Position numbers and translations under genes: made by a program. From NCBI GenBank assembly GCA_949545755.1, contig CATITK010000018.1, forward strand, positions 1 to 64,000: DNA of 64,000 nt, in the 5' to 3' direction. The stretch comes from Polaribacter sejongensis (GTDB taxonomy: Bacteria; Bacteroidota; Bacteroidia; Flavobacteriales; Flavobacteriaceae). Under the pieces are notes generated by a model. It worked only from the letters and a program-made list of their open reading frames with translations. It was not told where the DNA came from and made no database searches. Shown here one piece after another: positions 23,368 through 28,442 of this stretch (positions are counted from its first letter, which is position 1; every line of letters starts with the position of its first letter).

Positions 23368-24183
23368 TTAAATCACCTTAATGACTTCCTTAAATAAGGT
23401 AATCATTTTCGGTTCAGCTTCACCAGCAATGGCAATAATTTCTGCAATGTTTACGGGTTGTAAATTTTTAGGATTGCATTCATCAGTCAATACAGAAATA
23501 GCTACACAAGGTAAATTTAGTTGTTTTGCAACGATGACTTCGGGCACAGTACTCATACCCACTGCATCGATTTCTAAAATTTGCAACATTCTGTATTCTG
23601 CTCTAGTTTCTAGTTGAGGGCCTACAACACTTGCATAGATTCCTGTGTGTAATTGAATCTTGTTTTCTTTGGCTATTTTTAGTAATTTATCGTTGGTTTC
23701 TTTTGAATAGGGTGCTAACATGTCAGCAAAAATATTTCCAAAAATATTAGCCCCTTTAAAAGCTAAAGGTGAGCTTCCTTGTAGGTTGAGGTGGTCTTCA
23801 ATTAACATTAAATCTCCTTTTTTATAGGACAAATTAATTGCACCAGCAGCGTTAGAAATCAGTAAGTTTTTTATTCCTAAACCGTCCATGGTTCTTATTC
23901 CGTAAGTAACTTCCCAAAGATTATAACCTTCATACAAATGAAAACGACCAGACATTACTATTATTTTTTTTCCTGATAATTCTCCGTAAATTAATTTACC
24001 AGAATGAAATTCTACTGTAGCAGTTGGAAAGTTTGGAATTTCTGAATAGGCAATCTCTTTTTCAATGGAAATTTCATGAACTAGTTTTCCTAAACCTGTT
24101 CCTAAAACAATTCCTATTTCTGGATTTGAAATTCCATTTAATTTTAAATAATCAATTGTTTCTTGTAATTGTTGTTGTTTCAT
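23368..24183 (-). CDS. purine-nucleoside phosphorylase
   Basis: GIVLGTGLGKLV, MSGRFHLYEGY, LLISNAAGAIN, VVGPQLETRAEYRML, DAVGMSTVPEVIVA. Confidence 0.95.
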   Translation of the reverse strand: MKQQQLQETIDYLKLNGISNPEIGIVLGTGLGKLVHEISIEKEIAYSEIPNFPTATVEFHSGKLIYGELSGKKIIVMSGRFHLYEGYNLWEVTYGIRTMDGLGIKNLLISNAAGAINLSYKKGDLMLIEDHLNLQGSSPLAFKGANIFGNIFADMLAPYSKETNDKLLKIAKENKIQLHTGIYASVVGPQLETRAEYRMLQILEIDAVGMSTVPEVIVAKQLNLPCVAISVLTDECNPKNLQPVNIAEIIAIAGEAEPKMITLFKEVIKVI

Positions 24184-24219: not shown

Positions 24220-24831
24220 TTATTTGAAAAAATGTTGAAATGCCTCATGATGTTCAATATCTTCAAATACATCCACATCATTTAATGCTGATAACAAATG
24301 TACCTTTTTATCTTTTAAATCTACTAAAGTATCTTTTCTAACAGTATCTGTTCCCCAATCTTTATTTTTAAAGATATTTTCTTGCAAAGTATTCATTCCT
24401 AAAAGATAATAACCACCGTCTTCTGCAGGTCCTATTACCACATCGTTCGTGTCTAATTCGTTAAAAGCGATATCTATTCTTTCCGTTGATAAGTCATACA
24501 AGTCACTACCAATAATCAATACTTTTTTGTAGCCAGCATCAAAACTATTTTTAAAAGCATTTAACATTCTAAGACCTAAATCTTCTCCCAATTGTTGGTA
24601 TTTTTGATAGCTATTAGTATCCCAAATATCATTATTTCTGATTTTTACGGAATAGTAAACAGCTTTGTCTGAAGTTACTTTTGAAGAAATATCTCTAGTT
24701 TTTTGTAGTAAGAACTTATAGATTTTTAAAGCAGTTTCATCACCAACAGTTTTCGCTAAACGTGTTTTTACTTTTCCCAATTCGGGGTTTCTAGTGAAAA
24801 TTAATAATAAGTTTTCTCTTTTAGAATTCAT
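24220..24831 (-). CDS. TIGR04282-type (arsenosugar-biosynthesis-associated, DUF2064) glycosyltransferase
   Basis: NLLLIFTRNPELGKVKTRLAKTVGDETAL, VLIIGSDLYDLS, VIGPAEDGGYYLLGM. Confidence 0.9.
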   Translation of the reverse strand: MNSKRENLLLIFTRNPELGKVKTRLAKTVGDETALKIYKFLLQKTRDISSKVTSDKAVYYSVKIRNNDIWDTNSYQKYQQLGEDLGLRMLNAFKNSFDAGYKKVLIIGSDLYDLSTERIDIAFNELDTNDVVIGPAEDGGYYLLGMNTLQENIFKNKDWGTDTVRKDTLVDLKDKKVHLLSALNDVDVFEDIEHHEAFQHFFK

Positions 24832-24843
24832 TTTTTATAATTG

Positions 24844-25054
24844 TTAACCAACAAATAGAGCCTCTTTTAAATGATTGACTTTGTATTCTTTTTCTTATCT
24901 AGAATTTAATAAAATAGCTTTTGTCTTGTGCAATGCCAAAGTTTTAAGAGACATATAAGGAACATTATTTTTGTTCCACTTGCGAAATAACTTGTCTTTT
25001 TTTTTGTACAAAAGTTGATGCATTAATAAGTACCAATAGCAAAAGTTTTTTCAT
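24844..25054 (-). pseudogene. degraded rhodanese-like domain protein (N-terminal part)
   Basis: From ATG at 25054: MKKLLLLVLINASTFVQKK, frame change at an A-run, then DKLFRKWNKNNVPYMSLKTLALHKTKAILLNSR-stop-EKEYKVNHLKEALFVG-stop; resembles the start of flavobacterial rhodanese-like proteins. Confidence 0.65.
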
Positions 25055-27359: not shown

Positions 27360-27695
27360 TTAGCCGTCAAGTTTATTCACTTTATTCATCATTTGAACAC
27401 TATGAACTAAAGTTGCACCACTTTTAATGGCAGCGCCAACATGAACAGCTTCCATCATTTCTTCTTTCGTTACTCCACGTTGTAAACCATCTTTTGTGTA
27501 GGCATCTATACAGTAAGGACATTGCTCTGTATGTGCTACCGCCAGAGCAATTAATGACTTTTCGCGAGCAGTTAATGCTCCTTCTTCAAATACTTTTCCA
27601 TAATAGTCAAAAAACTTATTTCCAAGTTCTTCGTTCCATTCTGTGATTTTACCAAATTTTCTTAAATCTGCAGCATTATAATACGTTTTAGACAT
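27360..27695 (-). CDS. arsenosugar biosynthesis-associated peroxidase-like protein (AhpD/carboxymuconolactone decarboxylase family)
   Basis: EKSLIALAVAHTEQCPYCIDAYTKDGL with CxxC, GATLVHSVQMMNK; next to arsS. Confidence 0.9.
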   Translation of the reverse strand: MSKTYYNAADLRKFGKITEWNEELGNKFFDYYGKVFEEGALTAREKSLIALAVAHTEQCPYCIDAYTKDGLQRGVTKEEMMEAVHVGAAIKSGATLVHSVQMMNKVNKLDG

Positions 27696-27731: not shown

Positions 27732-28442
27732 CTATTTTCCATTTAAAGTCCAATTATATTTTAGAAAACTAATTTTTGCTTCTGGACTAATTTCAGTCTC
27801 TGAATATTTATTTAAAAAGGCAATAAGAGAACCGTCTTTAGTAAAGTCACTTTTAAACCAATCAAAAATCGAAGAAATTTGAATTTTCTTTTTTGCTAGT
27901 TTGTTTCTTGATGTATCGTTGATAAAATCTTTCATTAAACGCGTTAACTCAGCGTCTATATTTTTTTCAGTAAAAGCAATATTTGAGATTTTAGGACAAG
28001 ACCCTGAAGCACAATTTACACCAACATGAATTTTTGGATCAAATAAATTTTTGCGTAAAATTTTGTGCTCAATATGATTTAAAGTATAGTTTTTACCGCC
28101 AATTTTAGCAAAAGGAATTTCCCAAGCATTTTTTCCTTTTTGGTTGATATTCATAATACTTTTTAGTGGGTAATTTTCCAAAATTATTTTGATAGTATAT
28201 GCGTTATACCCATTAATCCAAAAGGCCTTTTGTTTGTCTTTTGACCAAGAATTTGTTGGAGACGTTTCTTCTAAATAAGAAATATAACGATCTAATTTAC
28301 CTTCATCATTTTTAAAAGATTTATAATCTACAATTCCATTTTTGCTAACATGCTTTTGTAATAAATCATTGAAAATAGATGTTTGTGCTTGCACTTGAGA
28401 AAAAGTAAAAACCGAAATAAGTAGTACTATTATTTTTTTCAT
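27732..28442 (-). CDS. DUF547 domain-containing protein
   Basis: KQKAFWINGYNAYTIKIILENYP, IHVGVNCASGSCPKI. Confidence 0.92.
   Translation of the reverse strand: MKKIIVLLISVFTFSQVQAQTSIFNDLLQKHVSKNGIVDYKSFKNDEGKLDRYISYLEETSPTNSWSKDKQKAFWINGYNAYTIKIILENYPLKSIMNINQKGKNAWEIPFAKIGGKNYTLNHIEHKILRKNLFDPKIHVGVNCASGSCPKISNIAFTEKNIDAELTRLMKDFINDTSRNKLAKKKIQISSIFDWFKSDFTKDGSLIAFLNKYSETEISPEAKISFLKYNWTLNGK

Follow-up and report, generated by a model that had tools for sequence, protein, structure and literature searches.

The window analysed here, that is, the whole stretch of 64,000 nucleotides of Polaribacter sejongensis DNA, carries a cluster of minus-strand genes whose upstream end is a gene for a DUF547 protein (27732-28442). 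It is followed by genes for a TIGR04169 arsenosugar-associated peroxidase-like protein (27360-27695, assigned by NCBIfam profile), the radical SAM enzyme ArsS (TIGR04167; 26157-27209, 441 bits), the arsenosugar-type arsenite methyltransferase ArsM (NF038099; 25072-26040, 571 bits), a TIGR04282 family glycosyltransferase (GT; 24220-24831, 206.6 bits against a cut-off of 134) and a purine-nucleoside phosphorylase (23368-24183, again by NCBIfam profile). The DUF547 and phosphorylase genes belong to the same cluster in relatives, and arsS, arsM and the GT gene are intact. Between arsM and the GT gene, at 24844-25054 and likewise on the minus strand, lies a rhodanese-domain pseudogene of the family NF045521, of which about the first 73 codons are left, as judged from DNA alignment, shuffled controls, profile search and reading frames. 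Since all of its neighbours in the window have open frames, the cluster presumably still works without the rhodanese.

The remnant opens with the original start codon, an ATG at 25052-25054, followed by MKKLLLLVLINASTF. At an A-run, from 25005 down to about 24996, the frame switches and KDKLFRKWNKNNVPYMSLKTLALHKTKAILLNSR is read in another frame, the run in alignment being two bases short of its length in intact relatives. An in-frame TAA (24895-24897), occupying a codon that is GAA or GAG in most intact relatives, precedes EKEYKVNHLKEALFVG, and after the VG with which the remnant ends there follow the terminal stop (24844-24846), 12 bases and the start of the GT gene. Start codon, frame change at the A-run, stop and the three peptide stretches all lie where the first-pass annotation, made from the letters alone, had placed them, and a frame of 34 codons is still open from the ATG. 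The same annotation had described the catalytic half as missing: everything past codon 73 or so, about 90 codons together with the spacer to the GT gene, is deleted at a 3' junction (24832-24846), and the deleted part includes the active-site loop CSLGIRSE and the C-terminal tail. Between the TAA, the frameshift and the deletion of the loop, the window copy retains no full-length intact frame with the catalytic cysteine loop.

That the fragment derives from a rhodanese-like gene, as had been proposed, is borne out by local DNA alignment to six intact relatives, which gave scores of 66-95, with 68-75% of positions identical over 200-210 bases, compared with a maximum of 23 in 200 shuffles each. 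A remnant segment of 51 codons matches a profile built from eight intact relatives with 48 bits (E 1.5e-12), and NF045521 is the sole family in the whole profile library to be matched by the best remnant segment, with 14.5 bits, far under the family cut-off.

The decisive check proposed for this assignment was the presence of an intact rhodanese gene in the arsM-GT interval of relatives, and such a gene is found at exactly the same position. In a sample of 80 named loci and genome relatives fetched with ArsM as the query, Polaribacter loci in which the GT gene follows arsM usually hold an intact gene of about 163 codons in this interval. The intact orthologue at locus L061 belongs to NF045521, the NCBIfam family 'rhoda_near_glyco' of rhodanese homology domain-containing proteins (212.5 bits, cut-off 145), and contains a PF00581 rhodanese domain (75.9 bits); intact counterparts at the window position thus reach 212 bits for a family of which the window copy is a truncated member without active site. 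The N-terminus of the intact genes inspected resembles, by eye, a Sec signal peptide. Of 72 intact genes, 71 have the active-site loop CS[LIV]G[IV]RSE, and one falls outside the search pattern. In one Polaribacter (L056:6995-7309) arsM and the rhodanese gene are separated by a gene for a 104-residue protein with a biotin/lipoyl domain (PF00364, 47 bits). At another locus (L208, G138:C15) the rhodanese gene is apparently frameshifted near its C-terminus with the active site intact, representing either early decay or a sequencing slip.

The loop also bears on the kind of enzyme that has been lost, for which the first-pass annotation had offered a sulfurtransferase or an arsenate-reductase-like step. 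Rhodanese-fold arsenate reductases carry the active-site motif HCx5R (PMC10135228), which has seven residues, whereas the intact NF045521 relatives carry the six-residue loop CxxGxR (CS[LIV]G[IV]RS in 71/72), and the arsenate-reductase role was rejected on these grounds. Acr2/Cdc25-type arsenate reductases thus have the fold superfamily and an arsenic context in common with NF045521 and differ from it in the active-site motif. A loop of six residues is that of sulfurtransferases, and by its sequence the intact rhodanese is probably a sulfurtransferase. It resembles the single-domain thiosulfate sulfurtransferases of the PspE/GlpE type in its rhodanese fold and its six-residue loop with a catalytic cysteine, and both GlpE and PspE are among its relatives of solved structure. 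The NF045521 proteins nonetheless score under the GlpE and PspE cut-offs, and are set apart by a conserved C-terminal tail (TEKVHxFxxxWxKWLxKG) and by their position upstream of the GT gene.

Across the genus group this position reflects a close association with the glycosyltransferase. Among 148 genomes, counted over the respective cut-offs, the rhodanese is present in 105, the GT in 135, ArsS in 130 and ArsM in 109; all 105 rhodanese-bearing genomes have the GT, and none of the 13 GT-less genomes has the rhodanese (Fisher p 2.4e-8). In 60 of 63 named loci the rhodanese gene stands immediately upstream of the GT gene, no more than 400 bp away (median gap 8 bp), and in two of the other three it overlaps the GT gene by a few bases; of 25 loci drawn from across the order, 17 have the rhodanese gene in this position. 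Rhodanese and GT occur with neither ArsM nor ArsS in five genomes that are complete or nearly so (G034, G060, G061, G130 and G143); in the four whose cluster was read (loci L282-L285, in G034, G061, G130 and G143) the order is DUF547 - rhodanese - GT - nucleoside phosphorylase. Co-occurrence, adjacency and persistence without ArsM and ArsS together tie the rhodanese to the GT and not to the arsenic methylation or radical SAM step. Its proposed place as a step of arsenosugar synthesis is accordingly unproven, the gene tracking the TIGR04282 GT and being kept beside it where ArsM and ArsS are missing. Both cluster layouts, arsS-rho-GT-arsM and arsS-arsM-rho-GT, are found with and without the rhodanese. 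Partial second copies of arsM occur near the operon in two cases, a C-terminal piece of 36 residues with 67% identity at G020:C1:1222052-1222159 and a larger fragment with 82% identity in Flavivirga jejuensis (L096:7804-8241).

Among the 148 genomes the rhodanese is missing from 30 that bear the GT, all of them of about 3 Mb or less. Losses were counted on an ArsM+ArsS tree of 101 genomes with regain excluded by assumption; the operon's own genes were used because rpoB is absent from the window genome and unusable for several loss genomes, so that this is not a species tree, and its support is weak in places. The best tree requires at least 19 losses; if every branch with less than 95% support is collapsed so as to give the fewest losses, the minimum is 10. 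Completeness-corrected genome size has a median of 2.59 Mb (2.20-3.01) in the loss genomes versus 3.53 Mb (p 8e-13), and of 2.58 versus 3.64 Mb among genomes at least 90% complete (p 7e-8). In tree-aware pairs joined by non-overlapping paths, a threshold of 2.9 Mb yields seven pairs in the same direction, none in the opposite direction and three ties (median p 0.016), and the test is weaker at 2.6 and 3.2 Mb, where p is 0.06 for one threshold and 0.13 for the other. The relation between size and loss is a correlation with modest tree-aware support. An independent rhodanese remnant lies in the arsS-GT gap of locus L199 (G142:C12, about 2685-2990), where N- and C-terminal pieces are left and the catalytic middle is gone. 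Weak tblastn matches upstream of the GT gene in several further loss genomes were dismissed as artefacts of queries that ran into the 3' end of arsS. In one assembly (G137:C1:325900-329657) rpoB is spread over several frames with stops, which suggests indel errors.

The first-pass annotation had left it open whether the rhodanese step was lost or replaced. For replacement no candidate gene was seen in the loss genomes. It could be argued that another rhodanese, or some other gene, took over the function in the loss lineages, given that generic rhodaneses or rhodanese-like matches remain in every one of them and that in one genome (G152) a foreign gene pair occupies the slot. That pair, in the arsS-GT gap of locus L202 (G152:C2), consists of a ParD-like antitoxin (PF03693, 24 bits) and a ParE-like toxin (PF05016, 40 bits) and is thus a toxin-antitoxin module with no enzyme, and most loss genomes have nothing in the slot, which spans about 25-120 bp. 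Five rhodanese domains were found in the window genome, none of them of the NF045521 family: one is TrhO, and others are in a fusion with a metallo-beta-lactamase and in generic short proteins of 123 and 92 residues. A takeover of function is on this evidence improbable. A search for a second intact rhodanese elsewhere, also recommended at the outset, found no NF045521 member over the cut-off in the draft window genome, which comprises 170 contigs, is 89% complete and has no rpoB found. Because the genome is an incomplete draft, an intact copy may still have moved into unbinned DNA, which is unlikely; other genomes with the GT and no rhodanese are complete or almost complete, and one of them, G020, is a single contig.

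The history of the remnant can be read from comparison with the sister genome G076, a separate assembly that belongs to the same genus group and whose DNA is 96-97% identical to the window across most of the region. The TAA, the 3' deletion junction, which is identical, and the arsM-GT spacing are common to both. Since both genomes carry the TAA and the deletion, these lesions predate the split between the window lineage and G076, and their presence in an independent assembly marks them as inherited and not as sequencing errors. The start codon, kept in the window, is gone in G076, and the A-run of G076 is three bases shorter than in intact relatives, so that the frame is kept and the frameshift is not shared. 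Later, G076 lost its start codon and the window lineage acquired the frameshift, though the frameshift taken alone could be an error.

Between the two genomes, 16 of 238 aligned bases of the interval differ, compared with 17 of 284 fourfold sites in arsM, arsS and the GT gene (p 0.86 against the interval) and 14 of 1750 first and second codon positions in the flanking genes (p 3e-8). The interval therefore diverges like fourfold sites, as expected of a remnant without constraint at the protein level. The two genomes have inherited the same disabling lesions and have diverged neutrally, as a bacterial pseudogene would. This also weighs on the idea that the fragment still has a function, either as a short peptide or as a leader for translation of the GT, for which the surviving ATG and 34-codon frame of the window could speak: with the ATG gone in G076, and the interval as divergent as fourfold sites and gathering indels, such a role is very doubtful. 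That sequencing or assembly went wrong and the gene is truly intact, as the frameshift's location in an A-run with one base of difference in G076 and the draft state of the window genome in 170 contigs might suggest, is scarcely credible when the independently assembled G076 shares both the TAA and the deletion of over half of the gene, the flanking genes have open frames and the interval diverges at the neutral rate.

We thus consider it very likely that the interval holds an inherited, neutrally decaying pseudogene of a GT-linked NF045521 rhodanese whose active site was lost before the split from G076. The ancestral gene would have encoded a single-domain rhodanese sulfurtransferase, exported to judge by the signal peptide recognised by eye, directly upstream of the TIGR04282 GT gene, in a cluster with the order DUF547 - peroxidase-like protein - arsS - arsM - rhodanese - GT - nucleoside phosphorylase. 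Before the two lineages split, the active site disappeared through a nonsense mutation and the deletion of roughly 270 bases; the loss of the start codon in G076 and the frameshift in the window lineage came afterwards. As an accessory linked to the GT, the rhodanese was probably dispensable and dropped as genomes shrank. Export, sulfurtransferase chemistry, dispensability and genome reduction as the driver of loss are all inferred in this account. It may be guessed that the protein acted outside the cytoplasm, in thio-modification or redox reactions of the GT product. It is a tentative and rather unlikely extension of this guess that rhodanese and GT form a pair with a task beyond arsenosugars, in which an exported accessory, acting for example in thio-modification or redox handling of a product that is itself exported, is discarded by small genomes with a change in the end product.

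A pseudogene as such is ordinary, and the informative part is the recurrent loss of the gene. NF045521 is a curated but uncharacterised family, which on the present data depends on the TIGR04282 GT and not on ArsM or ArsS, a rule absent from the literature searched; no paper on this rhodanese gene was found in that literature, with subscription papers lying outside it, which is not proof of absence. The NCBI name for the GT, 'arsenosugar biosynthesis glycosyltransferase', may be too restrictive, given that complete genomes lacking both ArsM and ArsS retain the enzyme. Among the flavobacteria, small-genome members have repeatedly dropped the rhodanese and kept the rest of the cluster, and this pattern of loss points to which genes of the cluster are likely to be core and which accessory.
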